Shown piece after piece: positions 3,859-31,100 of a stretch of 64,000 nucleotides of DNA. Under the pieces are notes generated by a model. The model worked only from the letters and a program-made list of their open reading frames with translations. It was not told the origin of the DNA and made no database searches. Origin of the DNA: Cafeteria roenbergensis (Eukaryota; Sar; Bigyra; Bicosoecida; Cafeteriaceae); assembly GCA_008330645.1 (NCBI GenBank), contig VLTN01000091.1:1-64000 (forward strand), read 5' to 3'. Each line of letters starts with the position of its first letter. The first letter of the stretch is position 1. The translations under genes and the position numbers were made by a program.

Positions 3859-4346
3859 CTCGAGCGCCGTGAGAATGACAAGATGAGGGAGTACAAGAAG
3901 AGCTCAGCTACAAAGGACAACTTGAGCTCCATTGTGCCCTTCGTCATCACGACCACGGGACGCATGGGACCGGCGGCCTTCGCCTTCCTCAAGAAGGTGG
4001 CGGACACGGCCTTCGGTGATCGGCCGAGGGAGCGTGCGCGCTGGGCCTTCCGCTGGCTGTCGAGGCTGAACGAGGTCATCGCCAAGGGACTGGCGACCCA
4101 GCTGATCGGGCAGACGCAGTACCTGCGGCAGCAGGTGGAGCGTATGCGGTGAGCAGGGGCGGCTGTGTGGTGACTCGAGGCAGTGTGATGGCAGGGATCT
4201 GGGATTTGAGACTTGGGATTGTGGGTTTGGCGCGGTTTGTGATTCATCGGTGATGGCGTTGCTGGATTGGTGATTGGTGAGTCTGTGAATCGAGTGTGTG
4301 GCATGGTTTTGCGAGCTTTTGACCCCCCCCAACGATGTTCATCCAA
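3857..4346 (+). mobile_element. LINE copy 1b, 5'-truncated (about 0.49 kb)
   Basis: It starts inside the endonuclease-distal coding region at CTCGAGCGCCGTGAGAATG, directly abutting the 3' end of copy 1. It carries the ORF end (stop near 4152) and the full 3' UTR, ending again at CCCCCAACGATGTTCAT. Its coding part and the first part of its UTR match copy 2 more closely than copy 1 (for example GGTGATCGGCCG and CTGCGGCAGCAGG). Its tail variant (TTTTGCGAGCTTTTGAC) is shared with the fragment at 8775-8862. Confidence 0.88.
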
Positions 4347-5338: not shown

Positions 5339-8300
5339 AGTGCCGGCGGTGCTGGCGCTGTACGGCTCGTCCAGCCCGCTCCTCTTTGCCACGGACGAGG
5401 GCGAGGTCTTTGAGCTGAAGTCCAACAGGGGCGTGCGTCAAGGCGACCCGGCAGCGGGCGCACTGTTTGCGATCGCAGTGCACCCCCTGGTGGACGAGGT
5501 GAGGCGCGCCTTCCCAGATGTGCTCATCTTGCAGATGGCCGACGACACGACGCTGGTGGGCCCGAGGAGGAGCGCCTTCAAGGCAGCCCAGATGCTGGCC
5601 GAGCGGCTCAGCACGGTGGGGCTGCGGATGAACGCCGACAAGACCCAGGTGCTGTGCAAACGTGGACAGCGCGAGGAAACCAAAGCCAGAATTCAGCGGG
5701 TGATGAAGCGGAGTAGGGACGATCCAGGGTCCCCACCCTCGGTGCTGGCGGGGTGCCACCTCACCGAACGGAGCGTGGCGGTGCTGCAGTGTCCTGTGGG
5801 GGAGGACCTCTCACCGGAGGTGGCCCTAGAGCAGTCGATGAAGCGACTAGAGAAGGAGTTCGGGCCGGCGGCGGAGCGCCTGCTCGCGGGCATCGAGGTC
5901 TGCGGGCTCAAGCGGGCGCACCACCTACTGCTGTCAGTGCTCGGACAGAAGTTCAGCTACCTGCACAGAGCAGCGGGTGCGGCGGCGGGCCAGGAGCTGG
6001 CGGTGTTCCATGCGGCGCTGCTGGCCAACCTGGCGGCAGTGGCGCACAAGACGGAGCTGGATGCGATCGGCCACGCGCTCTCGGACGAGATGTGCACGGT
6101 GACCGAGGACGGCTTCCGTGAGGCCATGTCCAAGGCCATCGAGGCGCTTGTTCGGGGGCTGCCGGACGAGCACGCAAGGCGGGAGGCGTGGTGGGCGCTC
6201 CTGGGCCGGGAAGCCGACGGTGTGACTCGGCTCGCATCGGCAGCGTCCAACCCGGCCTTGAAGAAGGGAGGCTACGCTCAGATGAGGCTGGCAAAGATGC
6301 TGAGCAAGGGCTGCAAAGCCGGGGGCATGGGCCTGCCTGGCGTGGCGCAGTTCCGCTTCGAAGCGGCAGCGGGCTTCATCGAGGCCGTTCGGGACATGCG
6401 GAAAGGGCGGTTCGAGATGGCACCACCGCCGGAGGAGGCCCTCGACGGACCCGGCACTGGTGGAGGCGGAGGAGAGCCAGCGTCGGGGAGTGGTGCCGGA
6501 GCGGGACCAGCCAACGCCGGCGAGGCGGAAGCGGAGGATGAGTCGGGTGCGGCGGCTGCTGCAGCGGGCGGCACGCCGTGGGTGGACCACCCGGCGGTCG
6601 GAGAGAGCGAGTCCAAGGAGGACTGCGAGGAGGGGCCGGCGCACGGGCAGCAGCTTGCAGGTACGCTGGACGGCTGGCTCGTCAGCGGTACGGGGGGAGC
6701 GGCTGAACCGGAGCATCAGCCAACACCGACAAGCGGAGGCCAGACGGTCGGCGGAGGTGCGGCTGCCGCCAGCGCGGCGGGAGCGGCGACCGAGATGACG
6801 ACGGGCGGCGGCGGCGCAGCGGCAGCTAGTGCGGCTGGCGCTCCAACCGGCCACGAGACATCTGATGCCGCACAGCCGAGAGCGGATGCGGCACAGGTCT
6901 ACTCGGTCAGGCGAACGCCGGCGATCGGGTTGGCCAGGGACGGACCCGACGCGGACGCGGACGGCAACGACCCCAACTGGAAGGGCATCTCGCTCAAGAA
7001 ACTCGTGATGCGGGCGCTGAGGCGCTCAGACCGCAGCGGTGCGACCAAGGAGGTGGGCGACATCCTGCTGCGATGCGAGGAGGTCGCCAAGGGAGCCTAC
7101 CGGGACTACGAGCGGGACAGCAAGGAGTACAAGGACGCCTGCACCGAGGCACGGTACTTCAGGCCGGACAAGGACTGCGTCGTGGGCAAGGAGGCCGACC
7201 TTCATGCCGCCAGGGTGAAGAAGCGCTACCAGCTGGCGCATGTGTGGAGGTCTGACATCGCGGGGGCTGTCGAGGGCCTGGAAGAGCTGCGCGCCGAGAT
7301 CGAGGAGCTGGCGCTGGAGGCGATGATGGAGCTCAGATCTGACGACGAGTCGTCGGATGACATGGAGGCAGCGGCAAACCTGGTGGAGGAGTTCATCAGG
7401 GCCTGCAAGGGAGCCCGCTGCCTGGCCGCAGCGACAGGGTTCGAGGGCTTCTTGCCCGACACCCTGGGTAAGCTGCCGGGCGAGCTGAAGGCCAAGCTCC
7501 GCAAGTGCCTGTACGGCGACGGGGTGACAGCGCGGGCGAACGAGCAGACCGAGGCGCCCTGGCAGCGCAAGATGGTGCTGCACCACGACGACATGCTGCG
7601 CATCAAGCACGAGTGTGTCTTCCTGCGCCGTCTGGCCAAGGCGCGCAGGGCCTGCTGCACAGCACGCTGCAGGGCCGAGGCGCTGGCCAAGGGCACGCCG
7701 GAGAAGCGTGTCGCCAACATCGACGACCCGGCCATGCTACGCGTCATGAGCGACCTGGTCGCGTTCCGAGAGGCGTGCGTGCCGGGAACGCACTACTGGC
7801 TCCGCAACACGATGATGGGACCCCGCGGGCTCACAGACGAGGAGTTCGCGGTGGTCACCCGCTACCGCATCGGAGCCTCCGAGGCTGACCACGTGGTGCC
7901 AGACGGCGTGTCGATCAACTGCGCGTGCGTGCAGCGAGATACCACCGCGAGAGGCACCGTCCACATCGGCGGGGTCTCGGGCGTGGCACATCACCTGGCG
8001 CGCTGCCGCTGCGGCAAGGGCTCCACCATCCGGGCGCACAACGACGTTCGCGACGTCCTGCACGCGGCGGTGCGCTCGGCGGGGCTACAGTCGGTGGTGG
8101 AGCCCTCCAGCTGGCAGGACGGGCAGACGCGCTTCGGGTCCCAGCCGGGGTCCAGCGAGGCCGCGCGCAAGCGACCGGACCTGCGGGTGCACGTCGACTT
8201 CGAGACCACCTGTCTCGTCGACGTGCAGATCACCTCGGCGGTGAGCAAGTCCTACGTGACGCAGGGCCTGCAGAACATGGACGCCTTTCTCGAGCGCCGT

Positions 8301-8772
8301 GAGAATGACAAGATGAGGGAGTACAAGAAGAGCTCAGCTACAAAGGACAACTTGAGCTCCATTGTGCCCTTCGTCATCACGACCACGGGACGCATGGGAC
8401 CGGCGGCCTTCGCCTTCCTCAAGAAGGTGGCGGACACGGCCTTCGGTGATCGGCCGAGGGAGCGTGCGCGCTGGGCCTTCCGCTGGCTGTCGAGGCTGAA
8501 CGAGGTCATCGCCAAGGGACTGGCGACCCAGCTGATCGGGCAGACGCAGTACCTGCGGCAGCAGGTGGAGCGTATGCGGTGAGCAGGGGCGGCTGTGTGG
8601 TGACTCGAGGCAGTGTGATGGCAGGGATCTGGGATTTGAGACTTGGGATTGTGGGTTTGGCGCGGTTTGTGACTCATTGGTGATGGAGTTGCTGGATTGG
8701 TGATTGGTGAGTCTGTGAATCGAGTGTGTGGTATGGTGACGCGAGTTTTCGACCCCCCCCAACGATGTTCAC
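5339..8772 (+). mobile_element. LINE copy 2, longest uninterrupted copy, 5'-truncated in RT
   Basis: It starts at the equivalent of copy 1 position about 470, inside the RT between motifs A and B, and runs through to the shared 3' end. About 3.43 kb. It is nearly identical to copy 1 over 3.2 kb, apart from isolated substitutions, a 3-nt insertion near 7653 (an extra Cys codon) and the indels noted for copy 1. The UTR has tail variant GGTATGGTGACGCGAG. Near-identity of two copies 5 kb apart implies very recent retrotransposition or tandem duplication/conversion. Confidence 0.9.
5340..8582 (+). CDS. LINE polyprotein fragment: RT motifs B-D, linker, endonuclease
   Basis: 1080 residues, open throughout, but without the RT N-terminus and motif A, so non-autonomous. 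Visible: RGVRQGDPAAGALFA (motif B, about residues 30-45), MADDTTLVG (motif C, about 67-75; Met in place of the usual first residue of the xADD box), NADKTQVL (motif D). A GGMGLPGVAQFRF block follows. Next come a Gly/Ala/Glu-rich linker of roughly 190 residues, the charged helical part and the C-terminal CAC...HHLARC cluster with RPDLRV and DVQIT of a restriction-like endonuclease. The initiating Met is an artefact of truncation. LINE identity is sure; clade assignment is tentative. Confidence 0.85.
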   Translation: MPAVLALYGSSSPLLFATDEGEVFELKSNRGVRQGDPAAGALFAIAVHPLVDEVRRAFPDVLILQMADDTTLVGPRRSAFKAAQMLAERLSTVGLRMNADKTQVLCKRGQREETKARIQRVMKRSRDDPGSPPSVLAGCHLTERSVAVLQCPVGEDLSPEVALEQSMKRLEKEFGPAAERLLAGIEVCGLKRAHHLLLSVLGQKFSYLHRAAGAAAGQELAVFHAALLANLAAVAHKTELDAIGHALSDEMCTVTEDGFREAMSKAIEALVRGLPDEHARREAWWALLGREADGVTRLASAASNPALKKGGYAQMRLAKMLSKGCKAGGMGLPGVAQFRFEAAAGFIEAVRDMRKGRFEMAPPPEEALDGPGTGGGGGEPASGSGAGAGPANAGEAEAEDESGAAAAAAGGTPWVDHPAVGESESKEDCEEGPAHGQQLAGTLDGWLVSGTGGAAEPEHQPTPTSGGQTVGGGAAAASAAGAATEMTTGGGGAAAASAAGAPTGHETSDAAQPRADAAQVYSVRRTPAIGLARDGPDADADGNDPNWKGISLKKLVMRALRRSDRSGATKEVGDILLRCEEVAKGAYRDYERDSKEYKDACTEARYFRPDKDCVVGKEADLHAARVKKRYQLAHVWRSDIAGAVEGLEELRAEIEELALEAMMELRSDDESSDDMEAAANLVEEFIRACKGARCLAAATGFEGFLPDTLGKLPGELKAKLRKCLYGDGVTARANEQTEAPWQRKMVLHHDDMLRIKHECVFLRRLAKARRACCTARCRAEALAKGTPEKRVANIDDPAMLRVMSDLVAFREACVPGTHYWLRNTMMGPRGLTDEEFAVVTRYRIGASEADHVVPDGVSINCACVQRDTTARGTVHIGGVSGVAHHLARCRCGKGSTIRAHNDVRDVLHAAVRSAGLQSVVEPSSWQDGQTRFGSQPGSSEAARKRPDLRVHVDFETTCLVDVQITSAVSKSYVTQGLQNMDAFLERRENDKMREYKKSSATKDNLSSIVPFVITTTGRMGPAAFAFLKKVADTAFGDRPRERARWAFRWLSRLNEVIAKGLATQLIGQTQYLRQQVERMR

Positions 8773-10342: not shown

Positions 10343-13300
10343 ATGGCCGCTGCTGCCGTGACTGAGGACAGGCTGCTGCTGGCCCTGGTGAATGCCAGCG
10401 ACAGCGGCAACACTGCCGAAGTCAGCAGGCTGCTGGACGCAGGAGCGTCAGTGAACGGGATGTGGCCACCAGCCGTGAGCGCGGTTCCTGACGAGCTTAA
10501 TGTCGTGCCTAGGCGCCACGATCAAGGAGGCTGCTGACGCGGCGCTTGGAGCCAACATGAGGCTAGCCGACAGCATCCCAAATCACAATGCTTGCTGCAG
10601 GGAGCCCGGCACAGCGGCCTGGGCAGGGCAGACAATTTGGGCCACTTTGTGCTCTCTTGGTGAATATCGTTGTCGACGACCAGAGATTTCCTCTTGCTCG
10701 GGCTGCGAGTCTCCGCAGGATGGGAACACGGCGCTGATTCGCGCATCCGAGAACGGCCACATGGACATCGTGCGGATGCTGCTCGACCGTGGCGCCAGTA
10801 TGGATGCCACCGATTATGTGAGCCAGCCCGCGTGCCTCGCCGCGCCGCCGCCGTCCCTGCACGGAGCAGCCGGGCCCAGGCCGCAGCGGGTGGAGCGTGG
10901 CCGGGTCAAGTGGCCCGCCGGGAGGGTGGCGAGGGCAAGGCGACCTGGTGTGCGGAGGGTCGCTGTGCGGCGAACGCGCGCCTGGCTGGGGATGTGTGTC
11001 GCCGCAGAATGAGGGACCAGCGCTGCTGTGGGCCGCTCGCAACGGTCACGCGGACATCGTGCGGATGCTGCTCGAGCATGGCGCCAGCGTGGATGCCGCT
11101 GATCGCGTGAGTCAGCCCGAGTGCCTCGCCGCGCCGCCGCCGTCCCTGCACGGGGCAGCCGGGCCCAGGCCGCAGCGGGTGGAGCGTGGCCGGGTCAAGT
11201 GGCCCGCCGGGAGGGTGGCGAGGGCAAGGCGACCTGGTGTGCGGAGGGTCGCTGTGCGGCGAACGCGCGCCTGGCTGGGGATGCGTGTCTCCGCAGCTTG
11301 GAAGACCGGCGCTGCGGTGGGCCGCTCGCAACGGTCACGCGGACATCGTGCGGATGCTGCTCGAGCATGGCGCCAGCGTGGATGCCGCTGATCGCGTGAG
11401 TCAGCCCGCGCGCCTCGCCGCGCCGCCGCCGTCCCTGCACGGAGCAGCCGGGCCCAGGCCGCAGCGGGTGGAGCGTGGCCGGGTCAAGTGGCCCGCCGGG
11501 AGGGTGGCGAGGGCAAGGCGACCTGGTGTGCGGAGGGTCGCTGTGCGGCGAACGCGCGCCTGGCTGGGGATGCGTGTCTCCGCAGCTTGGAAGACCGGCG
11601 CTGCGGTGGGCCGCTCGCAACGGTCACGCGGACATCGTGCGGATGCTGCTCGAGCATGGCGCCAGCGTGGATGCCGCTGATCGCGTGAGTCAGCCCGCGC
11701 GCCTCGCCGCGCCGCCGCCGTCCCTGCACGGAGCAGCCGGGCCCAGGCCGCAGCGGGTGGAGCGTGGCCGGGTCAAGTGGCCCGCCGGGAGGGTGGCGAG
11801 GGCAAGGCGACCTGGTGTGCGGAGGGTCGCTGTGCGGCGAACGCGCGCCTGGCTGGGGATGCGTGTCTCCGCAGCTTGGAAGACCGGCGCTGCGGTGGGC
11901 CGCTCGCAACGGTCACGCGGACATCGTGCGGATGCTGCTCGAGCATGGCGCCAGCGTGGATGCCGCTGATCGCGTGAGTCAGCCCGCGCGCCTCGCCGCG
12001 CCGCCGCCGTCCCTGCACGGAGCAGCCGGGCCCAGGCCGCAGCGGGTGGAGCGTGGCCGGGTCAAGTGGCCCGCCGGGAGGGTGGCGAGGGCAAGGCGAC
12101 CTGGTGTGCGGAGGGTCGCTGTGCGGCGAACGCGCGCCTGGCTGGGGATGTGTGTCTCCGCAGGATGGGGGCACAGCGCTGATTCGCGCATCTGAGAACG
12201 GCCACATGGACATCGTGCGGATGCTGCTCGAGCATGGCGCCAGCGTGGATGCCACTGATCGCGTGAGTCAGCCCGCGTGCCTCGCCGCGCCGCCGCCGTC
12301 CCTGCACGGAGCAGCCGGGCCCAGGCCGCAGCGGGTGGAGCGTGGCCGGGTCAAGTGGCCCGCCGGGAGGGTGGCGAGGGCAAGGCGACCTGGTGTGCGG
12401 AGGGTCGCTGTGCGGCGAACGCGCGCCTGGCTGGGGATGCGTGTCTCCGCAGCTTGGAAGACCGGCGCTGCGGTGGGCCGCTCGCAACGGTCACGCGGAC
12501 ATCGTGCGGATGCTGCTCGAGCATGGCGCCAGCGTGGATGCCGCTGATCGCGTGAGTCAGCCCGCGCGCCTCGCCGCGCCGCCGCCGTCCCTGCACGGAG
12601 CAGCCGGGCCCAGGCCGCAGCGGGTGGAGCGTGGCCGGGTCAAGTGGCCCGCCGGGAGGGTGGCGAGGGCAAGGCGACCTGGTGTGCGGAGGGTCGCTGT
12701 GCGGCGAACGCGCGCCTGGCTGGGGATGTGTGTCTCCGCAGCTTGGAAGACCGGCGCTGCTGTCGGCCGCTCGCAACGGCCACGTGGACATCGTGCGGAT
12801 GCTGGTCGAGCATGGCGCCAGGGTGGATGCCGCTGATGGTGTGAGTCAGCCCGCGTGCCTCGCTACGCCGCCGCCGTCCCTGCACGGAGCAGCCGGGCCC
12901 AGGCCGCAGCGGACGGAGCGAGGCGTGGCAAGATGGCCATTTAAGCATGTCACTCGGTCAAGGCAGCGAGTGTTGGTGTGCAGAGAGTGGACATGCGTTG
13001 ACCAAGGGAATGTCTTTTTGCGTGCCTTGTGACTTCTCGGCATGGCAGTACCGCCTGACTTCACTGATGTGGGCCGCTTTCAACGGCCACGTGGACATCG
13101 TGCGGATGCTGCTCGAGCATGGCGCCAGCGTGGATGCCGCTGATCGGGTAAGCCAGCCCGCGTGCCTCGCCGCGCCGCCGCCGTCCCTGCACGGAGCAGC
13201 CGGTCCCAGGCCGCAGCGGGTGGAGCGTGGCCGGGTCAAGTGGCCCGCCGGGAGGGTGGCGAGGGCAAGGCGACCTGGTGTGCGGAGGGTCGCTGTGCGG

Positions 13301-16300
13301 CGAACGCGCGCCTGGCTGAGGATGTGTGTCTCCGCAGCATGGGAGCACGGCGCTGCTGTCGGCCGCTCGCAACGACCACGTGGACATCGTGCGGATGCTG
13401 CTCGAGCATGGCGCCAGTATGGATGCCACCGATTATGTGAGCCAGCCCGCGCGCCTCGCCGCGCCGCCGCCGTCCCTGCACGGAGCAGCCGGGCCCAGGC
13501 CGCAGCGGGTGGAGCGTGGCCGGGTCAAGTGGCCCGCCGGGAGGGTGGCGAGGGCAAGGCGACCTGGTGTGCGGAGGGTCGCTGTGCGGCGAACGCGCGC
13601 CTGGCTGGGGATGTGTGTCTCCGCAGGATGGGGGCACAGCGCTGATTCGCGCATCCGAGAACGGCTACGCGGACATCGTGCGGATGCTGCTCGAGCATGG
13701 CGCCAGCGTGGATGCCGCTGATGGTGTGAGCCAGCCCGCGCGCCTCGCCGCGCCGCCGCCGTCCCTGCACGGAGCAGCCGGGCCCAGGCCGCAGCGGGTG
13801 GAGCGTGGCCGGGTCAAGTGGCCCGCCGGGAGGGCGGCGAGGGCAAGGCGACCTGGTGTGCGGAGGGTCGCTGTGCAGCGAACGCGCGCCTGGCTGGAGA
13901 TGTGTGTCTCCGCAGCATGGGAGCACGGCGCTGCTGTGGGCCGCTCGCACCGGCCACGTGGACATCGTGCGGATGCTGCTCGAGCATGGCGCCAGGGTGG
14001 ATGCCGCTGATGGTGTGAGTCAGCTCGCGTGCCTCGCCGCGCCGCCGCCGTCCCTGCACGGAGCAGCCGGGCCCAGGCCGCAGCGGGTGGAGCGTGGCCG
14101 GGTCAAGTGGCCCGCCGGGAGGGTGGCGAGGGCAAGGCGACCTGGTGTGCGGAGGGTCGCTGTGCGGCGAACGCGCGCCTGGCTGAGGATGTGTGTCTCC
14201 GCAGTATGGGAGCACGGCGCTGCTGTCGGCCGCTCGCAACGGCCACGTGGACATCGTGCGGATGCTGCTCGAGCATGGCGCCACCGTGGATGCTACCGAT
14301 CGCGTGAGCCAGCCCGCGTGCCTCGCCGCGCCGCCGCCGTCCCTGCACGGAGCAGCCGGGCCCAGGCCGCAGCGGGTGGAGCGTGGCCGGGTCAAGTGGC
14401 CCGCCGGGAGGGTGGCGAGGGCAAGGCGACCTGGTGTGCGGAGGGTCGCTGTGCGGCGAACGCGCGCCTGGCTGAGGATGCGTGTCCCCGCAGAACGGGA
14501 AAACGGCGTTGATTCGCGCATCTGAGAACGGCCACATGGACATCGTGCGGATGCTGCTCGAGCATGGCGCCAGCGTGGATGCCGCTGATGGTGTGAGCCA
14601 GCCCGCGTGCCTCGCCGCGCCGCCGCCGTCCCTGCACGGAGCAGCCGGGCCCAGGCCGCAGCGGGTGGAGCGTGGCCGGGTCAAGTGGCCCGCCGGGAGG
14701 GTGGCGAGGGCAAGGCGACCTGGTGTGCGGAGGGTCGCTGTGCGGCGAACGCGCGCCTGGCTGGGGATGTGTGTCTCCGCAGGATGGGGGCACAGCGCTG
14801 ATTCGCGCATCTGAGAACGGCTACGCGGACATCGTGCGGATGCTGCTCGAGCATGGCGCCAGCGTGGATGCCACTGATCGCGTGAGTCAGCCCGCGTGCC
14901 TCGCCGCGCCGCCGCCGTCCCTGCACGGAGCAGCCGGGCCCAGGCCGCAGCGGGTGGAGCGTGGCCGGGTCAAGTGGCCCGCCGGGAGGGTGGCGAGGGC
15001 AAGGCGACCTGGTGTGCGGAGGGTCGCTGTGCGGCGAACGCGCGCCTGGCTGGGGATGCGTGTCTCCGCAGCTTGGAAGACCGGCGCTGCGGTGGGCCGC
15101 TCGCAACGACCACGTGGACATCGTGCGGATGCTGCTCGAGCATGGCGCCAGTATGGATGCCACCGATTATGTGAGCCAGCCCGCGTGCCTCGCCGCGCCG
15201 CCGCCGTCCCTGCACGGAGCAGCCGGGCCCAGGCCGCAGCGGGTGGAGCGTGGCCGGGTCAAGTGGCCCGCCGGGAGGGTGGCGAGGGCAAGGCGACCTG
15301 GTGTGCGGAGGGTCGCTGTGCGGCGAACGCGCGCCTGGCTGGGGATGTGTGTCTCCGCAGAACGGGAGCACGGCGCTGCAGTCAGCATCTTGCTACGGCT
15401 ACGTGGACATCGTGCGGATGCTGCTCGAGCATGGCGCCAGCGTGGATGCCGCTGATGGTGTGAGTCAGCCCGCGTGCCTCGCCGCGCCGCCGCCGTCCCT
15501 GCACGGAGCAGCCGGGCCCAGGCCGCAGCGGGTGGAGCGTGGCCGGGTCAAGTGGCCCGCCGGGAGGGTGGCGAGGGCAAGGCGACCTGGTGTGCGGAGG
15601 GTCGCTGTGCGGCGAACGCGCGCCTGGCTGGGGATGTGTGTCTCCGCAGAACGGGAGCACGGCGCTGCAGTCAGCATCTTGCTACGGCTACGTGGACATC
15701 GTGCGGATGCTGCTCGAGCATGGCGCCAGCGTGGATGCCGCTGATGGTGTGAGTCAGCCCGCGTGCCTCGCCGCGCCGCCGCCGTCCCTGCACGGAGCAG
15801 CCGGCCCAGGCCGCAGCGGGTGGAGCGTGGCCGGGTCAAGTGGCCCGCCGGGAGGGTGGCGAGGGCAAGGCGACCTGGTGTGCGGAGGGTCGCTGTGCGG
15901 CGAACGCGCGCCTGGCTGGGGATGTGTGTCTCCGCAGAACGGGAGCACGGCGCTGCAGTCAGCATCTTGCTACGGCTACGTGGACATCGTGCGGATGCTG
16001 CTCGAGCATGGCGCCAGCGTGGATGCCGCTGATGGTGTGAGTCAGCCCGCGTGCCTCGCCGCGCCGCCGCCGTCCCTGCACGGAGCAGCCGGGCCCAGGC
16101 CGCAGCGGGTGGAGCGTGGCCGGGTCAAGTGGCCCGCCGGGAGGGTGGCGAGGGCAAGGCGACCTGGTGTGCGGAGGGTCGCTGTGCGGCGAACGCGCGC
16201 CTGGCTGGGGATGTGTGTCTTCGCAGTATGGAAGACCGGCGCTGCTGTGGGCCGCTCGCAACGGCCACGTGGACATCGTGCGGATGCTGCTTGAGCATGG

Positions 16301-18074
16301 CGCCAGTATGGATGCCGCTGATGCCTTCGATCGCGTGAGTCAGCCCGCGTGCCTCGCTACGCCGCCGCCGTCCCTGCACGGGGCAGCCAGGCCCAGGCCG
16401 CAGCGGACGGAGCGAGGCGTGGCAAGATGGCCATTTAAGCATGTCACTCGGTCAAGGCAGCGAGTGTTGGTGTGCAGAGAGTGGACATGCGTTGACCAAG
16501 GGAATGTCTTTTTGCGTGCCTTGTGACTTCTCGGCATGGCAGTACCGCCTGACTTCACTGATGTGGGCCGCTTTCAACGGCCACGTGGACATCGTGCGGA
16601 TGCTGCTCGAGCATGGCGCCAGTATGGATGCCGCTGATCGGGTAAGCCAGCCCGCGTGCCTCGCCGCGCCGCCGCCGTCCCTGCACGGAGCAGCCGGTCC
16701 CAGGCCGCAGCGGGTGGAGCGTGGCCGGGTCAAGTGGCCCGCCGGGAGGGTGGCGAGGGCAAGGCGACCTGGTGTGCGGAGGGTCGCTGTGCGGCGAACG
16801 CGCGCCTGGCTGGGGATGTGTGTCTCCGCAGGATGGGGGCACAGCGCTGATTCGCGCATCTGAGAACGGCTACGCGGACATCGTGCGGATGCTGCTCGAG
16901 CATGGCGCCAGCGTGGATGCCGCTGATCGGGTAAGCCAGCCCGCGTGCCTCGCCGCGCCGCCGCCGTCCCTGCACGGGGCAGCCGGGCCCAGGCCGCAGC
17001 GGGTGGAGCGTGGCCGGGTCAAGTGGCCCGCCGGGAGGGTGGCGAGGGCAAGGCGACCTGGTGTGCGGAGGGTCGCTGTGCGGCGAACGCGCGCCTGGCT
17101 GGGGATGTGTGTCGCCGCAGAATGAGGGACCAGCGCTGCTGTGGGCCGCTCGCAACGACCACGTGGACATCGTGCGGATGCTGCTCGAGCATGGCGCCAG
17201 TATGGATGCCACCGATTATGTGAGCCAGCCCGCGCGCCTCGCCGCGCCGCCGCCGTCCCTGCACGGAGCAGCCGGGCCCAGGCCGCAGCGGGTGGAGCGT
17301 GGCCGGGTCAAGTGGCCCGCCGGGAGGGTGGCGAGGGCAAGGCGACCTGGTGTGCGGAGGGTCGCTGTGCGGCGAACGCGCGCCTGGCTGGGGATGTGTG
17401 TCTCCGCAGGATGGGGGCACAGCGCTGATTCGCGCATCTGAGAACGGCCGCATGGATATCGTGCGGACGCTGCTCGAGCATGGCGCCAGCGTGGATGCCG
17501 CTGAACGCGTGAGCCAGCCCGAGTGCCTCGCCGCGCCGCCGCCGTCCCTGCACGGGGCAGCCGGGCCCAGGCCGCAGCGGGTGGAGCGTGGCCGGGTCAA
17601 GTGGCCCGCCGGGAGGGTGGCGAGGGCAAGGCGACCTGGTGTGCGGAGGGTCGCTGTGCGGCGAACGCGCGCCTGGCTGGGGATGCGTGTCTCCGCAGGA
17701 TGGGGGCACAGCGCTGATTCGCGCATCTGAGAACGGCCATATGGACATCGTGCGGATGCTGGTCGAGCATGGGGCCACCGTGGATGCTACCGATCGCGTG
17801 AGCAATCAAGGTGCCTCCCCGCACTGCCGCAGGACGGCCAGCCCTTTGCTCGCAGCCGCGCGTTCCCCAGCCCCAGGGCACGCTTTCATCTCGCACTGAG
17901 CTGTCCGTTCATCAACTGAGACTTCCCCGCGTCGCAGGACGGATGAACGCCCTCGCGTCATGCTCTTGCCACGAGTGCCAGATCCTGCTCCGCGCCACTG
18001 AGCGACTTAAGCGGTGGCACCGACGCCAATCCCTTGCTACATGGCGACACGCGGCCGACAAGCTGAGAGACTGA
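10343..18074 (+). CDS. Ankyrin gene A: 27 exons, one ankyrin repeat per exon
   Basis: Exon 1 is 10343-10474 (44 codons; LLDAGASVN is a half-repeat cap). Exons 2-26 each carry one ankyrin repeat in phase 0: 10719-10817, 11008-11106, 11297, 11586, 11875, 12164, 12453, 12742, 13049, 13338, 13627, 13916, 14205, 14494, 14783, 15072, 15361, 15650, 15938, 16227-16334 (108 nt), 16543, 16832, 17121, 17410 and 17699-17797. All are 99 nt except the one marked. Most introns are 190 nt (GTGAGT...CTCCGCAG) and nearly identical. Repeats follow xGxTALxxAxxNG..DIVRMLLEHGA. The terminal exon (probably 17938-18074) encodes a Cys-containing tail with KRWHRR and TWRH. Using donor 17811 the frame stays open and the protein is about 921 aa. 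Ankyrin stacks bind proteins; the partner is unknown. Splice structure is inferred from signals and repeat register only. Confidence 0.82.
10719..17797 (+). repeat. Tandem array of 25 exon-intron units (289-bp period)
   Basis: The period is 289 bp (99-bp exon + 190-bp intron), with exceptions. Two units carry a different 208-nt intron (12841-13048 and 16335-16542), which ends CATGGCAG and precedes the same YRLTSLMWAAFNG exon. One intron (15749-15937) has lost one base. Exon 21 has three extra codons (DAF). Intron copies differ at only a few sites, whereas exons fall into several distinct types in their first half (DGGTALIRASENG, LGRPALRWAARNG, NGSTALQSASCYG, HGSTALLSAARND, NEGPALLWAARNG). The array arose by unit duplication with ongoing homogenisation. 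Confidence 0.9.
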
Positions 18075-18936: not shown

Positions 18937-21900
18937 TCAGTGTCTCCACTTTACCAGGCGTTCACGCCGGTGCCAGCGTTGGCACTGCTCGGACTGCGCG
19001 ATTATGGTTCTGCATCGTTCGTCAAACAGCCGCCAAGACGGAGCACTCCCATCCTGCAGCTCAGTGGCTCGCAAGCAGCGCATGGAACGTCGTACTGTCG
19101 GTGCGTTGTGCGAAGTGAATATGTCGAAGGAGACTTGGATGGCATGGAAGAGAGGGGCAATGCAGGGTGCCAGGAATGCGTGGCTGCTCGCCAAGCATGA
19201 AAAATTGCTCAGTGAGCGTGAACTTGGAGACTCTGCCCTGAAGGGGTGGCTGACTTGATGAGTCAACGAAAACAACAAGGCAAGGTACGCAAGCCTACAG
19301 CGGGCTAAGCATGGCGCAAGGCTCACGTCAGCTCTTCCCTCCACGAAGGCGCCACGGTCCAGCAGCAGCTTCACGGTGTCCGCTTTGCCTGCCTTTGCCG
19401 CAGCTGTCAGCGCCGTGTCGCCGTCCTGCTAAAACACCGACCATGCTCGCAACGGCGCCCCATCGCGCTCCCAGTCAGCGCCGCTTCCCACTCCAGCTCG
19501 GACACCGCCCCGCTCCGCAGCGATCGGACGCTCATCACGGACTGCGGCCCGCCGGCGAGGCCCGAGCACGGACCGGTGCGCAGCAGTCCCGTCTCCAGAC
19601 TCACGCGGCTCTTCGCCTCCAGGTCGGCGCCACGGTCCAGCAGCAGCTTCACGGTGTCCGTTTCGCCTTCCTCTGCCGCCATGATCAGCGCCGTCTCGCC
19701 GGCCTGCGAAGACACCGACCATGCTCGCAACGGCGCCCCATCGCGCTCCCAGTCAGCGCCGCTTCTCACTCCAGCCCGGACACCACCCTGCTCCGCAGCG
19801 ATCGGACGCTCATCACGGACTGCGGCCCGCCGGCGAGGCCCGAGCACGGACCGGTGCGCAGCAGTCCCGTCTCCAGACTCACGCGGCTCTTCGCCTCCAG
19901 GTCGGCGCCACGGTCCAGCAGCAGCTTCACGGTGTCCGTTGCTCTTGCCCCGACCGCCACGATCAGCGCCGTCTCGCCGTCCTGCGAAGACACCGACCAT
20001 GCTCGCAACGGCGCCCCATCGCGCTCCCAGTCAGCGCCGCTTCCCACTCCAGCTCGGACACCGCCCCGCTCCGCAGCGATCGGACGCTCATCACGGACTG
20101 CGGCCCGCCGGCGAGGCCCGGGCACGGACCGGTGCGCAGCAGTCCCGTCTCCAGACTCACGCGGCTCTTCGCCTCCAGGTCGGCGCCACGGTCCAGCAGC
20201 AGCTTCACGGTTTCCGTTTCGCCTTCCTCTGCCGCCATGATCAGCGCCGTCTCGCCGTCCTGCGAAGACACCGACCATGCTCGCAACGGCGCCCCATCGC
20301 GCTCCCAGTCAGCGCCGCTTCTCACTCCAGCTCGGACACCGCCCCGCTCCGCAGCGATCGGACGCTCATCACGGACTGCGGCCCGCCGGCGAGGCCCGAG
20401 CACGGACCGGTGCGCAGCAGTCCCGTCTCCAGACTCACGCGGCTCTTCGCCTCCAGGTCGGCGCCACGGTCCAGCAGCAGCTTCACGGTGTGCGTTGCTC
20501 TTGCCCTGATCATCAAGATCAGCGCCGTCTCGCCGTCCTGCGAAGACACCGACCATGCTCGCAACGGCGCCTCATCGCGCTCCCAGTCAGCGCCGCTTCC
20601 CACTCCAGCTCGGACACCGCCCCGCTCCGCGGCGATCGGACGGTCATCACGGACTGCGGCCCGCCGGCGAGGCCCGAGCACGGACCGGTGCGCAGCAGTC
20701 CCGTCTCCAGACTCACGCGGCTCTTCGCCTCCAGGTCGGCGCCACGGTCCAGCAGCAGCTTCACGGTGTCCGTTGCTCTTGCCCTGATCATCAAGATCAG
20801 CGCCGTCTCGCCGTCCTGCGAAGACACCGACCATGCTCGCAACGGCGCCCCATCGCGCTCCCAGTCAGCGCCGCTTCCCACTCCAGCTCGGACACCGCCC
20901 CGCTCCGCAGCGATCGGACGCTCATCACGGACTGCGGCCCGCCGGCGAGGCCCGAGCACGGACCGGTGCGCAGCAGTCCCGTCTCCAGACTCACGCGGCT
21001 CTTCGCCTCCAGGTCGGCGCCACGGTCCAGCAGCAGCTTCACGGTGTCCGTTTCGCCTGCCCTGATCATCATGATCAGCGCCGTCTCGCCGTCCTGCGAA
21101 GACACCGACCATGCTCGCAACGGCGCCCCATCGCGCTCCCAGTCAGCGCCGCTTCCCACTCCAGCTCGGACACCGCCCCGCTCCGCAGCGATCGGACGCT
21201 CATCACGGACTGCGGCCCGCCGGCGAGGCCCGAGCACGGACCGGTGCGCAGCAGTCCCGTCTCCAGACTCACGCGGCTCTTCGCCTCCAGGTCGGCGCCA
21301 CGGTCCAGCAGCAGCTTCACGGTTTCCGTTTCGCCTGCCCCGACCGCCATGATCAGCGCCGTCTCGCCGTCCTGCGAAGACACCGACCATGCTCGCAACG
21401 GCGCCCCATCGCGCTCCCAGTCAGCGCCGCTTCCCACTCCAGCTCGGACACCGCCCCGCTCCGCAGCGATCGGACGCTCATCACGGACTGCGGCCCGCCG
21501 GCGAGGCCCGAGCACGGACCGGTGCGCAGCAGTCCCGTCTCCAGACTCACGCGGCTCTTCGCCTCCAGGTCGGCGCCACGGTCCAGCAGCAGCTTCACGT
21601 TTCCGTTGCTCTGCCCTGACCGCCATGATCAGCGCCGTCTCGCCGTCCTGCGAAGACACCGACCATGCTCGCAACGGCGCCCCATCGCGCTCCCAGTCAG
21701 CGCCGCTTCCCACTCCAGCTCGGACACCGCCCCGCTCCGCAGCGATCGGACGCTCATCACGGACTGCGGCCCGCCGGCGAGGCCCGAGCACGGACCGGTG
21801 CGCAGCAGTCCCGTCTCCAGACTCACGCGGCTCTTCGCCTCCAGGTCGGCGCCACGGTCCAGCAGCAGCTTTACCGTGTCCGTGTGTCCAGCCTTGACCG

Positions 21901-24900
21901 CCAGGATCAGCGCCGTCTCGCCGTCCTGCGAAGACACCGACCATGCTCGCAACGGCGCCCCATCGCGCTCCCAGTCAGCGCCGCTTCCCACTCCAGCTCG
22001 GACACCGCCCCGCTCCGCAGCGATCGGACGCTCATCACGGACTGCGGCCCGCCGGCGAGGCCCGAGCACGGACCGGTGCGCAGCAGTCCCGTCTCCAGAC
22101 TCACGCGGCTCTTCGCCTCCAGGTCGGCGCCACGGTCCAGCAGCAGGTTCACGGTGTCCGTTTCGCCTTCCCCGACCGCCATGATCAGCGCCGTCTCGCC
22201 GTCCTGCGAAGACACCGACCATGCTCGCAACGGCGCCCCATCGCGCTCCCAGTCAGCGCCGCTTCCCACTCCAGCTCGGACACCGCCCCGCTCCGCAGCG
22301 ATCGGACGCTCATCACGGACTGCGGCCCGCCGGCGAGGCCCGAGCACGGACCGGTGCGCAGCAGTCCCGTCTCCAGACTCACGCGGCTCTTCGCCTCCAG
22401 GTCGGCGCCACGGTCCAGCAGCAGCTTCACGGTTTCCGTTTCGCCTGCCCTGATCATCAAGATCAGCGCCGTCTCGCCGTCCTGCGAAGACACCGACCAC
22501 GCTCGCAACGGCGCCCCATCGCGCTCCCCGTCAGCGCCGCTTCTCACTCCAGCTCGGACACCACCCCGCTCCGCAGCGATCGGACGCTCATCACGGACTG
22601 CGGCCCGCCGGCGAGGCCCGAGCACGGACCGGTGCGCAGCAGTCCCGTCTCCAGACTCACGCGGCTCTTCGCCTCCAGGTCGGCGCCACGGTCCAGCAGC
22701 AGCTTCACGGTGTCCGTTTCGCCTGCCCTGATCATCAAGATCAGCGCCGTCTCGCCGTCCTGCGAAGACACCGACCATGCTCGCAACGGCGCCCCATCGC
22801 GCTCCCAGTCAGCGCCACTTCCCACTCCAGCTCGGACACCGCCCCGCTCCGCAGCGATCGGACGCTCATCACGGACTGCGGCCCGCCGGCGAGGCCCGAG
22901 CACGGACCGGTGCGCAGCAGTCCCGTCTCCAGACTCACGCGGCTCTTCGCCTCCAGGTCGGCGCCACGGTCCAGCAGCAGGTTCACGGTGTCCGTTGCTC
23001 TTGCCCTGATCATCATGATCAGCGCCGTCTCGCCGGCCTGCGAAGACACCGACCATGCTCGCAACGGCGCCCCACCGCGCTCCCAGTCAGCGCCGCTTCC
23101 CACTCCAGCTCGGACACCGCCCCGCTCCGCAGCGATCGGACGCTCATCACGGACTGCGGCCCGCCGGCGAGGCCCGAGCACGGACCGGTGCGCAGCAGTC
23201 CCGTCTCCAGACTCACGCGGCTCTTCGCCTCCAGGTCGGCGCCACGGTCCAGCAGCAGCTTTACCGTGTCCGTGTGGCCAGCCTTGACCGCTGCTGTCAG
23301 CGCCGTGTCGCCAAACTGCGACTCCCAACAACGTGCTCGCATCGTCGCTCCATTGCACGCCTCCCCAAGAACAAACCGTTGCCGCCTTCCTGGCTGGCCC
23401 AAGGCACCAGCCCGCCATGACACGGTATGGCTGTCATGTCGACCCAAGGCCCACCCGTGACGGCATATCCCAACCGATTCGCAGAAGCGCCGTCTCCAGA
23501 CTCACGCGGCTCTTCGCCTCCAGGTCGGCGCCACGGTCCAGCAGCAGCTTCACGGTGTCCGTTTCGCCTTCCCCGACCGCCATGATCAGCGCCGTGTCAC
23601 AGACCTGCGAAGACACCGACCATGCTTGCAACGGCGCCCCATCGCGCTCCCAGTCAGCGCCGCTTCTCACTCCAGCTCGGACACCACCCCGCTCCGCAGC
23701 GATCGGACGCTCATCACGGACTGCGGCCCGCCGGCGAGGCCCGAGCACGGACCGGTGCGCAGCAGTCCCGTCTCCAGACTCACGCGGCTCTTCGCCTCCA
23801 GGTCGGCGCCACGGTCCAGCAGCAGGTTCACGGTTTCCGTTTCGCCTGCCCTGACCGCCACGATCAGCGCCGTCTCGCCGGCCTGCGAAGACACCGACCA
23901 TGCTCGCAACGGCGCCCCATCGCGCTCCCAGTCAGCGCCGCTTCTCACTCCAGCTCGGACACCGCCCCGCTCCGCAGCGATCGGACGGTCATCACGGACT
24001 GCGGCCCGCCGGCGAGGCCCGAGCACGGACCGGTGCGCAGCAGTCCCGTCTCCAGACTCACGCGGCTCTTCGCCTCCAGGTCGGCGCCACGGTCCAGCAG
24101 CAGCTTCACGGTGTGCGTTGCTCTTGCCCTGACCGTCGTGATCAGCGCCGTCTCGCCGGCCTGCGAAGACACCGACCATGCTCGCAACGGCGCCCCATCG
24201 CGCTCCCAGTCAGCGCCGCTTCCCACTCCAGCTCGGACACCACCCCGCTCCGCAGCGATCGGACGCTCATCACGGACTGCGGCCCGCCGGCGAGGCCCGA
24301 GCACGGACCGGTGCGCAGCAGTCCCGTCTCCAGACTCACGCGGCTCTTCGCCTCCAGGTCGGCGCCACGGTCCAGCAGCAGCTTCACGGTTTCCGCTTCG
24401 CCTGCTTTGACCGCTGCGACCAGCGCCGTCTCGCCGTCCTGCGAAGACACCGACCATGCTCGCAACGGCGCCCCATCGCGCTCCCCGTCAGCGCCGCTTC
24501 TCACTCCAGCTCGGACACCACCTCGCTCCGCAGCGATCGGACGCTCATCACGGACTGCGGCCCGCCGGCGAGGCCCGAGCACGGACCGGTGCGCAGCAGT
24601 CCCGTCTCCAGACTCACGCGGCTCTTCGCCTCCAGGTCGGCGCCACGGTCCAGCAGCAGCTTCACGGTGTCCGTTTCGCCTGCCCTGATCATCATGATCA
24701 GCGCCGCGTCGCCGGCCTGCGAAGACACCGACCATGCACGCAACGGCGCCTCATCGCGCTCCCCGTCAGCGCCGCTTCTCACTCCAGCTCGGACACCACC
24801 CCGCTCCGCAGCGATCGGACGCTCATCACGGACTGCGGCCCGCCGGCGAGGCCCGAGCACGGACCGGTGCGCAGCAGTCCCGTCTCCAGACTCACGCGGC

Positions 24901-25977
24901 TCTTCGCCTCCAGGTCGGCGCCACGGTCCAGCAGCAGCTTTACCGTGTCCGTGTGGCCAGCCTTGACCGCTGCTGTCAGCGCCGTGTCGCCAAACTGCGA
25001 CTCCCAACAACGTGCTCGCATCGTCGCTCCATTGCACGCCTCCCCAAGAACAAACCGTTGCCGCCTTCCTGGCTGGCCCAAGGCACCAGCCCGCCATGAC
25101 ACGGTATGGCTGTCATGTCGACCCAAGGCCCACCCGTGACGGCATGTCCCATCCGATTCGCAGAAGCGCCGTCTCCAGACTCACGCCATTGATCGCGTTC
25201 AGGTCGGCTTCCCGGTCCACCAGGAGCTCCACCATGTCCGTGTGTCCTGCTCTGGCCATCATGATCAGCGCCGTGTCGCTAACCTGCGAAGATACCGACC
25301 ATGCATGCATTGTCGCTCCATCACACGCCTCCCAGACTTTCATGCGCTGCCGGCTCCCTCGGCGCCTCGCGAAGGACCCCCGCCGTGTCCTGAGCTGCCC
25401 CGCAATCGCGGCTTGCGCCCCCGGCAGCGCACCCCCGGACACGGTCCGCCGCGCAGCGGCACCGTCTCCAGGCTCACGCGGCTCCTCGCCTCCAAGTTGG
25501 CGCCACGGTCCACAAGCAGCTTCAACAAGTCTTTGTGGCCCGATTTCGCCGCCATGATCAGCGCCGTCTCGCCATACTGCGATCCAACGTACCCTCGTGA
25601 CACTGGACTCGTCACCACGTAGAACGCGTCACGTCGTGCAGCCAGCGTTACTTCCCACGCCGGCCCCGCTACCAGCGCGCCTTGCAAGAATTGAGAGGCA
25701 AGTGCAGAACGGCGCCAGTCCATGTCGCCTGGCGCGGTCCGTCGCGCAGCGGGCAATGCCGCGGGTTGGGCACTTTTGCCTTGCGTTCTCGCGTCCCCTG
25801 CTCTCGACGACGGGCGGGCAGCAGGCCAGCAATCCCTGAGCTCACCTTCAGAACATCACTCCAGTTGACTCGTGCGCCCGCGTCGAGGAGCCTGCGGGCT
25901 TCAGCAGTGTTCCCGTCTCTTGCTGCCTCCCAGAGAGCTAGTGCCTGTGCGCCGGCGCTCGCCGGAGTGAGGGCCAT
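18937..25977 (-). CDS. Ankyrin gene B: 25 exons, one ankyrin repeat per exon
   Basis: Complement strand. Exon 1 is 25977-25846 (44 codons, LLDAGARVN cap, same length as in gene A). Ankyrin exons of 99 nt in phase 0 begin at 25576, 25283, 24994, 24716, 24438, 24160, 23882, 23604, 23315, 23037, 22759, 22481, 22203, 21925, 21647 (97 nt only), 21371, 21093, 20815, 20537, 20259, 19981, 19703 and 19425. The terminal exon 19053-18937 encodes 38 residues with QRWHRR and KWRH. Most introns are 179 nt and nearly identical. Repeats follow xGETALI...TVKLLLDRGADLEAKSR. The 97-nt exon breaks the frame unless it is skipped (then about 808 aa), corrected in the real sequence, or the gene is dying. The role is presumably protein binding, as for gene A. 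Confidence 0.78.
19327..25185 (-). repeat. Tandem array of 22 exon-intron units (278-bp period)
   Basis: The period is 278 bp (99-bp exon + 179-bp intron). Two units (exons at 24994 and 23315) encode FGDTALTAAVKAGHTDTVK and have a different 190-nt upstream intron. They lie 1679 bp apart, which shows block duplication of six units. Introns and the second half of each exon are almost invariant. Differences cluster in about 40 nt encoding residues 8-20 of the repeat. The intron sequence is unrelated to that of gene A, so the two arrays expanded independently. Confidence 0.88.
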
Positions 25978-28162: not shown

Positions 28163-31100
28163 TCATGAAACCTGAGCCTGAACCTCGGCTCTGGCCAGTG
28201 CCCGCGCGACTTCCATGACGCGCGAGTCCATCTCGAAGTCAAGCGCGTCAGGCAGACCCTGAGCGTCTGCGGTTCGCCGCGCCCAAACTCGGCGACTCCT
28301 GCGCACAGGAGTTGCGCTCATTGGGGCATCAGCATGAGTCCGCACCACATGCAGTGCTGTGAAGCTTCCCCCCAACGAGTCTGACTCAGTCTCCGGGCAC
28401 ACCTGCGCCTCCGAAGCCACTGCGCGGTTGTTGGCGCGAGAACTTTCCGGACTCGGAGGCGGGTGGCCCGCAAAAGCGACCGCACGCTCGCCAGGCGTTG
28501 ACCAGTCGCGAGCCAGAACATACAAGCCTGCCGCCAAGAGAGCAATCGAAGACACGAAGGCGTTCGCAGCCGTCGGCGCCGGGCCCTGGCCAGCGACACG
28601 TGGCTCGCCCAGGGATGCCCGCTGTGGCCAGCGGTTCAGCTCCAGCTGCGCATCTGCTGACGTGTCGCAGCCCGCGGGAGCCTGCGCGGAATCAGCTTCC
28701 AAGCCAGTGGGCTTGGGCGAGCCGTCCACCTCGTGCTGGGCATCGGGCAGCGCGGGTACCTTCGCGCTGCGCTGGGGCTGGACCTCGACTGCGTTCGCTG
28801 CCTGGGCCAGAGGAGCCAGGCACCACGCGGTGGCGTTGCCGTCGCGAGCCACGGGCTCTGCCTCGTGGGGCACCCTGCTCAGGTGACTGGGATGCAGGCT
28901 GCCGGCTGGCAGCAGGCCCGCAGAGTCGACCGTCCGTGGCTGCCCTCCGGTCGAAGGCCAATCCGCAACACCCGACAGCGTCTCGCGACCGCTGCCGGAC
29001 GCTTCAGCTGCTTGTGAGCCTGTCTTCATCGCTCCTGCAATGCCCCGTTGCTGCGGCAGAGTCTCGGACTTCTGACGATGAAGCACCTCACCCCAGTGAG
29101 GAGCCTTGCAAACAGACGCAACGTGCTCCTGTGTCGTCGCAGAATGCGCGGCCACTGCCACTTCTTGCGCCCGTTCATCCAATGGGCTCTCGGTGGATGC
29201 CACCGCCACATGCGGCGCTGTCAGCCCCGCAAAGCGAGGCACGGAGTGGGCCAAGAGCGCGAGGAGCAGAGCAACCAGCACAGCGCTCAGGCTGCCCCGC
29301 AGCCACCGCACCCCCTCGGCCGACTCGGTAGCGGCGGGGCACGGCACTCCCCAGGGGGAGCGCTCGCGAGAGGCTCCAGCTTCTGGTTCTTGAGCCTGCT
29401 TCGGCGTTGGCTCCTCGCTGCTGAGCATGAGGGACGTGCCGCGGCAAACAACAGACGGCCGCTGGTGCCGGACGTCGGGGTCTTCATTGCCTGCCCTGGC
29501 CCCCGTAGATGCAGCCTCAGCCACGGCGGCCTCCAGCGGCGACTCCTCCGCACCGGCAGCCTCAGCCACGGCGGCCTCCGTCGGCGACTCCTCCACACCG
29601 GCAGCCCCAGCAGCGGCGGCCTCCGTCGGCGACTCCTCCGCACCGGCGGCCCCAGCAGCGGCGGCCTCAGTCGGCGACTCCTCCGCACCGGCGGCCCCAG
29701 CAGCGGCGGCCTCCAGCGGCGACTCCTCCGCACCAGCGGCCCCAGCAGCGGCGGCCTCCAGCGGCGACTCCTCCGCACCGGCGGCCCCAGCAGCGGCGGC
29801 GGCGACTCCTCCGCACCGGCGGCCCCAGCAGCGGCGACTCCTCCGCACCGGCGGCCCCAGCAGCGGCGGCCTCCGTCGGCGACTCCTCCGCACCGGCGGC
29901 CCCAGCAGCGGCGGCCTCCAGCGGCGACTCCTCCGCACCGGCGGCCCCAGCAGCGGCGGCCTCCAGCGGTGACTCCTCCGCACCGGCGGCCCCAGCAGCA
30001 GCGGCCTCCAGCGGCGACTCCTCCGCACCAGCGGCCCCAGCAGCGGCGGCCTCCAGCGGCGACTCCTCCGCACGAGCAACAGTAGCGGCCACGGTGTCAC
30101 CGCTGCGGGCTCCCACCGGCACACAATCTGCACTCAGGGCCGGCACAGAGCTTGCACCGAGACGCTGCTCTTGGCTGCACCCTGCATCGACTCCGGAGAT
30201 TTCCTGCCCTGGGGCCGCCCCGCCTGCCTTTGGGGCAGGCCCGTCGTTGAGTTGGGCTGCGTCGGCGGCTGTCTGTGGGCATGCCTGCCGCTCACCCGCC
30301 GCGCAGGTTGCGCGCTTGCCAAGCCCGTGGTGCAGAGGAGAGCCAGACTCATCCTGCGTGAACCCAAGGGTTCTTGCTGTGGGGCTCGATTTCCTTGCTT
30401 CGTCTGCCTGGCCATGCGGCGTCGTCGTGCGTTGCAGCTGCCGTTGCTGCTGCTGCTCCTGCTGCTGCTTGGGCCGAGCTGGTGTGGCCTGGAACAAGGC
30501 GGTTTGCACTGACACACCTTGCTGCGCTGCCCACTCGCGGCGAGCGATTGCTGCCGCCTTGGCAACTGACCTGGAGAGAGCTGGGGTGAACCCGGTGCGC
30601 TTGGGCGAGGGGGGCGACGGCCAAGCAAGGTCCGCAGTGTCGGCCGGAGACGGAGCCTGTGGCTCAGCCTCTTTTGTTGAAGCCTCAGGCTTGCTTGCAC
30701 CCTGCTGGCTTCCCGCCTTGGGTACGGCTGCACGGCCATGCTGTTCCGGTTCAGATCCGGCCGGCCGAGGCATGCCGCCTCCAGCCTCAAGCGTGCCAGC
30801 CGTTTCCCCCTCGCGAGGGCTGGACTGCGAGGGCCGAACCGAGCTCTGACTCGCGCGGGCTGTCGGGAGCGGGTGGTATGGGCTCTTGCTTGCCGCATGC
30901 GGAGTGGAGTGCGCCTTGAGGGTGCGGGATCGTGGGAGCGCCCGCGACGCGCTTGGCAAGCCAAGCCGAGCCGATGTCGCGCCCGCTCGGGTTCGGCTCA
31001 TCAACACCGGCAGCTGACTGACTGACCCATGGGTGGGGGACTGTAGGAGCCGAAGAGGTCTCCCGTTGGGGTCAAACGCAAGGGAAGACCCAGCGGGCGT

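Follow-up and report, generated by a model that had tools for sequence, protein, structure and literature searches.

A tandem array of ankyrin exons with a narrow variable segment in Cafeteria roenbergensis, and the gene family to which it belongs

Why should a gene composed of nearly identical ankyrin exons vary from one exon to the next mostly within a single short segment? This question is raised by a minus-strand array in a stretch of Cafeteria roenbergensis DNA of 64,000 nucleotides (the window), which an initial annotation had described as the second of its ankyrin arrays. The array is indeed present, and it is longer than was claimed there, extending over 25576..19327 with an N-cap exon at 25977..25846. 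It is here called array 2 and has the following parts.

25846..25977, minus strand: N-cap exon of array 2; 132 nt, 44 aa, Met start, phase-0 end at a GTGAG donor
19327..25576, minus strand: repeat exons of array 2; 22 of 99 nt and one of 97 nt, with mostly 179-nt, phase-0 introns; Pfam Ank
21551..21647, minus strand: exon 15 of array 2; 97 nt, frame lost via two single-base deletions relative to its neighbours
21037..21075, minus strand: example of the variable segment, from unit 17; exon nt 19-57, residues 7-19
18937..19326, minus strand: 3' end of array 2; the frame of exon 23 stays open as far as the stop codon at 18939..18937

There are 23 ankyrin exons in array 2, each encoding one repeat, and 22 of them have both a length of 99 nt and phase-0 borders. 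The exception is exon 15, whose 97 nt represent either a residual assembly error or a broken exon. Nineteen of the 22 introns are 179 nt long, and the remaining three measure 190, 190 and 194 nt. Because 179 is not a multiple of three, splicing is required to produce a joined protein. Exons of 99 nt in phase 0 are frame-neutral, and thus the reading frame survives when a unit is gained, lost, fused or skipped. The offsets of the variable segment in unit 17 are valid for the other 99-nt units. Units 3 and 9 have identical exons, and each is preceded by a 190-nt intron, these two introns differing at 2 sites. The N-cap and the first five repeats together match Pfam Ank with an E value of 3.5e-40. 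The 3' end closes with QRWHRR..L..W, whose likeness to the C-tail of the wider family was judged by eye, and this end is absent from the 65 C-tail matches found genome-wide (E up to 0.01). We read array 2 as the repeat region of a host gene that has an unvarying N-cap exon, then 23 ankyrin exons in phase 0 that can stand in for one another, and probably a short tail.

The location of the variation was established with a core set of 16 units (units 4-22 minus 8, 9 and 15), scanned in 9-nt bins. Diversity per bin is 0.199-0.269 over exon nt 19-45 and 0.036-0.105 over nt 46-63, and there are zero polymorphic sites over the 81 nt from nt 58 to nt 138. Mean intron diversity is 0.0156 in the core set and 0.053 in the 20 units 3-22, the latter value being higher because variant introns are included. 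Per-base diversity over the aligned units, which the initial annotation had proposed as a check, therefore peaks at exon nt 19-57 and is followed by the invariant nt 58-138. The accompanying claim that variation is confined to about 40 nt describes this sharp peak well but is too strict, since residue 1 (D/A/V/F) and residue 3 (E/D) are also variable. Among the 19 exons of 99 nt in units 3-22, 27 of the 39 sites in codons 7-19 segregate. In the same units, codons 1-6 contain 7 nonsynonymous and 0 synonymous segregating sites, and none of the 42 sites in codons 20-33 segregates.

One possibility is that this pattern arose by neutral concerted evolution, wherein unequal crossing over multiplied and shuffled a small number of ancient unit types and the variable segment marks the differences among these founders. 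Copied segments do exist, as the identical exons of units 3 and 9 attest, and the variable segment carries synonymous as well as nonsynonymous differences when the KAGH/KAGE units are retained. However, a neutral process gives no reason for old variation to persist over 39 nt only, next to 81 nt and introns that were homogenised.

The position of the segment within the protein was considered by using a fold model of the family protein P0354, aligned with 19 other ankyrin proteins. The repeats of this model have pLDDT values of ~91-98, the mean of the whole model being 71.3, and the model is poor past residue 150. In the modelled repeat, helix 1 is formed by residues 5-12, the turn by 13-14 and helix 2 by 15-23. 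The Pfam Ank match and this 33-residue helix-turn-helix repeat both place the family among the ankyrins. According to the model, the variable segment takes in the greater part of helix 1 together with the turn and the first residues of helix 2. Its earlier placement on helix 1 is thus right for most of that helix but leaves out the turn and the beginning of the second helix. Residues 9 and 10 of ankyrin repeats are expected to be buried, and so part of the variation in array 2 may tune packing rather than contacts.

The case for selection is weaker when array 2 is taken alone. There are 21 nonsynonymous and 6 synonymous segregating sites in codons 7-19 of units 3-22, for opportunities of 29.7 and 9.3, and this represents no nonsynonymous excess. 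When all 30 exons of 99 nt from array 2 and a second locus on the contig designated C15 are combined, the segment has 26 nonsynonymous and 8 synonymous sites. An excess emerges only without the KAGH/KAGE unit type. A reduced set from both loci, which drops 9 of 31 units (end units, u3, u5, u9, u14 (KAGH/KAGE types) and exon 15), retains 17 nonsynonymous sites in codons 7-19 and 0 synonymous ones, where the opportunities are 31 and 8 (Fisher p 0.006). Because this set was picked after seeing the data, the 17:0 pattern is not used as a basis for the selection argument.

Searches with three block patterns of array 2 (1, 1 and 2 mismatches allowed) over the whole assembly, which comprises 36.3 Mb in 167 contigs, returned matches only in array 2 and on C15. 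The C15 locus has 8 units of array-2 type (seven plus a last exon with one residue different), compared with 23 in array 2. Upstream, they adjoin units of a different type with GTTTG donors, the junction falling at an exon start, and the units with GTTTG donors start with their own N-cap. Leaving the last exon aside, two of the four types of variable segment at C15 match array 2 exactly and two are absent there. The 3' flanks of the two loci are 99% identical over 471 nt, and 98% identical over 557 nt in a longer alignment with 4 gap positions. The units differ and the flanks are ~99% identical, which indicates that array composition changed while the flank changed by ~1%. The locus was also considered as a simple allele of array 2, and this was rejected: a 1.1-kb piece of the 5' flank has 1 match, the 3' flank has 2 matches, and the 5' part of the C15 locus differs. 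The gene at this site (L037/L038, contig C15:594300-607669) is composite, with several ankyrin unit types in a row, the last of which is the array-2 type.

Exchange among units was analysed in 25 units of 278 nt, 18 from array 2 and 7 from the C15 locus, which exhibit 18 distinct combinations in the variable segment. Multi-base blocks such as GGCGAA/AGAGCA are found again beside different neighbours, and recurrent point mutation explains such blocks poorly. Association between blocks is highest for neighbours, namely residues 9-10 with 11-12 (MI 1.3, p 0.0005), followed by residues 11-12 with 13-14 (p 0.003). It is weak for residues 13-14 with 16 (p 0.04) and absent for residues 16 with 19 in the 25 units. 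Residue 1 is weakly associated with residue 8 and with residues 13-14 (p 0.036 each, uncorrected, 36 tests), and hence not all pairs follow a simple decay. Within the segment, all four gametes are present for 57 of 253 pairs of informative sites in array 2 and for 64 of 276 in the 25 units, corresponding in each case to at least 6 recombination events. Among intron sites, the same holds for 6 of 10 pairs in array 2 and 12 of 15 in the 25 units (at least 5 recombination events in the latter), and thus exchange is not peculiar to the variable segment. No association was detected between the blocks of the segment and two common intron variant sites. In array 2, differences in the segment show no clear trend with unit distance up to ~10 units apart, and intron differences increase at larger distances. 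Short-tract exchange between the units of array 2 is well supported. The mosaic exchange that the initial annotation had read from the shuffled blocks is upheld by the neighbour-strongest association, by the four-gamete pairs and by the new combinations at the C15 locus.

Short exchange tracts would also be produced by directed or biased conversion, in which tracts from donor exons raise the diversity of the variable segment irrespective of selection. The KAGH type, which carries its own synonymous changes, is in keeping with such a process. However, no outside donor for the three block patterns was found in the assembly beyond array 2 and C15, and we regard conversion of this kind as quite improbable.

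There are at least 87 N-cap matches in the genome, including that of array 2, and at least 65 C-tail matches (E up to 0.01 for both). A stop codon is located inside 31 of the 65 C-tail matches, where the tail may consequently end earlier or be degenerate. For 40 of the 87 N-caps a C-tail follows on the same strand at a distance of no more than 20 kb, as compared with 13 that have one upstream and 3 that have one on the other strand, with two tails counted twice in this pairing. A protein-pattern search of 20 family loci, chosen by similarity to array 2, yielded 193 exons, of which all 193 are preceded by AG and 191 are followed by GT after exactly 99 nt. Another member of this family is array 1, which is convergent with array 2 and has the following parts.

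10343..10474, plus strand: N-cap exon of array 1; 44 codons and then a GTGAG donor; N-cap match at 10367-10456
10719..17797, plus strand: repeat exons of array 1; 25 ankyrin exons, 24 of 99 nt and one of 108 nt
17938..18074, plus strand: probable C-tail of array 1; contains ERLKRWHRRQSLATWRH; stop at 18074

The phase of the probable C-tail of array 1 does not agree with that of the last repeat exon at its GTGAG donor, and this C-tail matches the tail of another locus at 34% over 56 aa (E 6e-9). A further C-tail match of the ankyrin family is located at 63643-63732 on the minus strand (E 2.9e-4), and another family gene may therefore begin outside the 64-kb window. Many family arrays lie near contig ends. 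A subtelomeric location was considered and rejected, as nine contig ends, inspected over their outer 1000 bases, contain no repeat of the TTAGGG or TTTAGGG type. Four of these nine ends fall in ankyrin sequence as judged by eye, and assembly breaks can thus account for arrays near ends.

Perhaps the variants themselves were made or blended during assembly or polishing, by short reads mis-mapped among near-identical units. The assembly is described in the available text of its report as a PacBio RSII assembly polished with PacBio and Illumina reads via Racon (Hackl 2020, PMC6972860), and both the two single-base deletions in exon 15 and the contig ends in ankyrin sequence are compatible with errors of this sort. 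However, mis-mapping should blend the variable segment no less than the rest of the unit. Furthermore, the variants are in-frame multi-base blocks that are seen again on C15, and the family-wide pattern described below is present in 20 of 20 measurable arrays. We consider an artefact to be very improbable.

Evidence for selection on the binding face comes from the family as a whole. We take DARPin libraries to randomise the positions equal to repeat residues 33, 1, 3, 11, 12 and 24, with the register taken from alignments to solved DARPins. The most variable of the 33 residues in the 215 exons outside array 2 are 8, 11, 33, 3, 12 and 1, and five of these six are positions randomised in DARPins. 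When array 2 is included (237 exons), the random-set p for the six DARPin positions is 0.0006. Diversity at first plus second codon positions of these six residues exceeds both intron diversity and fourfold diversity in all 20 arrays for which intron diversity could be estimated (another 2 of the 22 have too few introns), where the arrays are not independent in that L013, L020 and L022 carry near-identical exons and are recent copies of each other. The means over the 20 arrays are 0.356 for the DARPin positions, 0.126 for introns and 0.154 for fourfold sites, and the other 27 residues have diversity above that of introns in 8 of 20 arrays.

At the positions other than the nine most variable, pN averages 0.067 and pS 0.160, which indicates that the protein is under constraint. 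At those nine positions the NG86 pS is also raised (0.312 versus 0.160), and pN exceeds pS in only 13 of 20 arrays. Replacement excess on the concave face is seen in 20 of 20 arrays by the diversity measure at the DARPin positions, versus 13 of 20 by pN > pS at the variable codons. The nine positions were picked from the same data, a bias from which the test of the six DARPin positions is free. When only codons with identical first two bases are compared, mean fourfold diversity over 22 arrays is 0.19 for the variable positions and 0.17 for the remainder. Codon bias at 70% GC may depress fourfold diversity, and splicing may constrain introns.

These observations bear on the diversified recognition repertoire that the initial annotation had proposed. 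The family's most variable residues do match the binding face, but array 2 itself varies much at residues 9, 10, 13 and 14, which are near-constant elsewhere in the family, rather than in the loop: in units 4-22, residue 3 is hardly variable and residues 32 and 33 are invariant. A role in recognition gains support from the family pattern, and it is treated below as conditional.

In ankyrins, variability is generally higher at surface residues. The arrays might thus be ordinary ankyrin scaffolds with constant partners for each repeat position, wherein the variation reflects relaxed constraint at the surface. However, relaxed constraint alone cannot raise replacement diversity above that of introns and fourfold sites, as is observed in 20 of 20 arrays, unless those sites are themselves constrained, and we find this reading improbable. 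Neutral concerted evolution likewise gives no reason for an excess at identical binding-face residues in 20 of 20 arrays, and we consider it unlikely.

The best overall explanation, which we favour with moderate confidence, is concerted evolution combined with diversifying selection on the binding face. The evolutionary mechanism taken by itself, diversifying selection plus homogenising recombination, is probable. Units and introns are near-identical and recombine, sometimes between loci; recombination would keep them alike, and diversifying selection would maintain many variants of the binding face. A renewable set of protein-binding surfaces would then be offered by every single gene and by the whole family with its 87 or more N-caps. 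Whether the ankyrin arrays function in recognition is, in our estimation, evenly balanced. The likeliest use would be in recognising variable partners in the cell, such as viral or bacterial proteins or non-self, on the assumption that the proteins are intracellular. A bolder and rather doubtful proposal is that Cafeteria possesses a natural counterpart of a DARPin library, consisting of tens of ankyrin-only genes that recognise viral or bacterial proteins and whose faces are re-sorted by recombination among interchangeable exons, rapidly enough for strains or even clonal lines to differ.

Several known systems are built on similar principles. The available text on brown algae describes ROCO LRR and NB-ARC-TPR genes with tandem fixed-length exons, shuffling and diversifying selection on the concave face as candidate receptors, the LRR exons being 72 nt in phase 2 (Teng 2024, PMC11378527, where Zambounis 2012 is cited on the same system). 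As there described, these arrays and those of Cafeteria share a stramenopile host, one repeat per exon, a constant length and phase, shuffling of the units and, in the reading favoured here, diversifying selection on the binding face of candidate receptors. They differ in that the algal repeats are LRR or TPR rather than ankyrin and the exons are 72-nt phase-2 rather than 99-nt phase-0, and in that Cafeteria is a unicellular bicosoecid. Fungal NLRs, as far as the available text covers them, have ankyrin, TPR or WD repeats with high internal conservation, concerted evolution and concave-face selection, and their repeat number varies among strains (Dyrka 2014, PMC4986451). The near-identical repeats, ankyrin among them, the concerted evolution and the replacement excess on concave-face residues are shared with Cafeteria, in which the variation in number (23 versus 8 units of array-2 type) is between array 2 and the C15 locus of the same genome. 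A structure with one exon for each repeat is a Cafeteria feature that the same text does not describe for fungal NLRs. Fungal NLR repeats, moreover, follow a NACHT or NB-ARC domain, together with an effector domain. No ROC-COR, NB-ARC, NACHT or effector domain was found in the array 2 gene model from the Met of the N-cap to the short tail, and therefore the Cafeteria family is not classed as a member of the NLR or ROCO systems.

The 90-bp-exon LRR genes of Tetrahymena form a large family with uniform tandem exons and a single intron phase, for which ectopic recombination has been proposed in the portion of the source available (PMC6564038). Uniform tandem exons and a nearby retroelement are common to both systems, and the Tetrahymena genes are unlike those of Cafeteria in being LRR genes with 90-nt, phase-2 exons in a ciliate. 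DARPins are designed ankyrin binders with 33-residue modules and a fixed framework, according to the available parts of four reports (PMC8683736, PMC8229355, PMC6796971, PMC3366976). In contrast to the Cafeteria repeats they are artificial, and in Cafeteria DARPin position 26 varies little and DARPin position 10 most. No description of ankyrin exon arrays or of an ankyrin family in Cafeteria was found among the papers listed from the openly licensed literature (CC0, CC BY, CC BY-SA). If the favoured explanation of concerted evolution with diversifying selection is true, the combination of alike units and diverse faces known from fungal NLRs and brown-algal exons would extend to ankyrins that lack a known receptor domain. 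The setting would be a unicellular stramenopile that is used in the laboratory as host for a giant virus and a virophage; C. roenbergensis is a flagellate of the sea that feeds on bacteria and is infected by the giant virus CroV.

When a protein database was searched with the spliced model of 770 aa and with a piece of 231 aa, the matches listed were for the most part unrelated ankyrins. Only one Cafeteria-named protein, P0354 (FNF31_07052), is among the 240 matches listed, most of which are nameless, with 8000 candidates scored per search. The genes of this family may be largely absent from protein databases. P0354 combines a family-type N-cap, three repeats and, after these, a CobW C-terminal match, an arrangement that is either a fusion or a misprediction.

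A retroelement with a reverse transcriptase domain (RVT_1) is located at 5340-8582 on the plus strand of the window, with a related copy at 1232-3859 and a further copy, ~97% alike, on C15. Its end repeat lies within 5 kb of an ankyrin N-cap or C-tail at 11 of 37 merged loci, where ~0.9 would be expected, as counted with 40 of 290 candidates scored and with the first 38 of the 65 C-tails. The retroelement and the ankyrin family may simply share repeat-rich regions. A tandem repeat of 45 and 90 bp at 29511-30073 is GCGGC-rich and overlaps long open frames. Finally, a single open frame at 38708-45448 on the plus strand, 100% identical to a Cafeteria roenbergensis protein over the 491 residues compared, encodes cyclic-nucleotide-binding, protein kinase and PP2C phosphatase domains.
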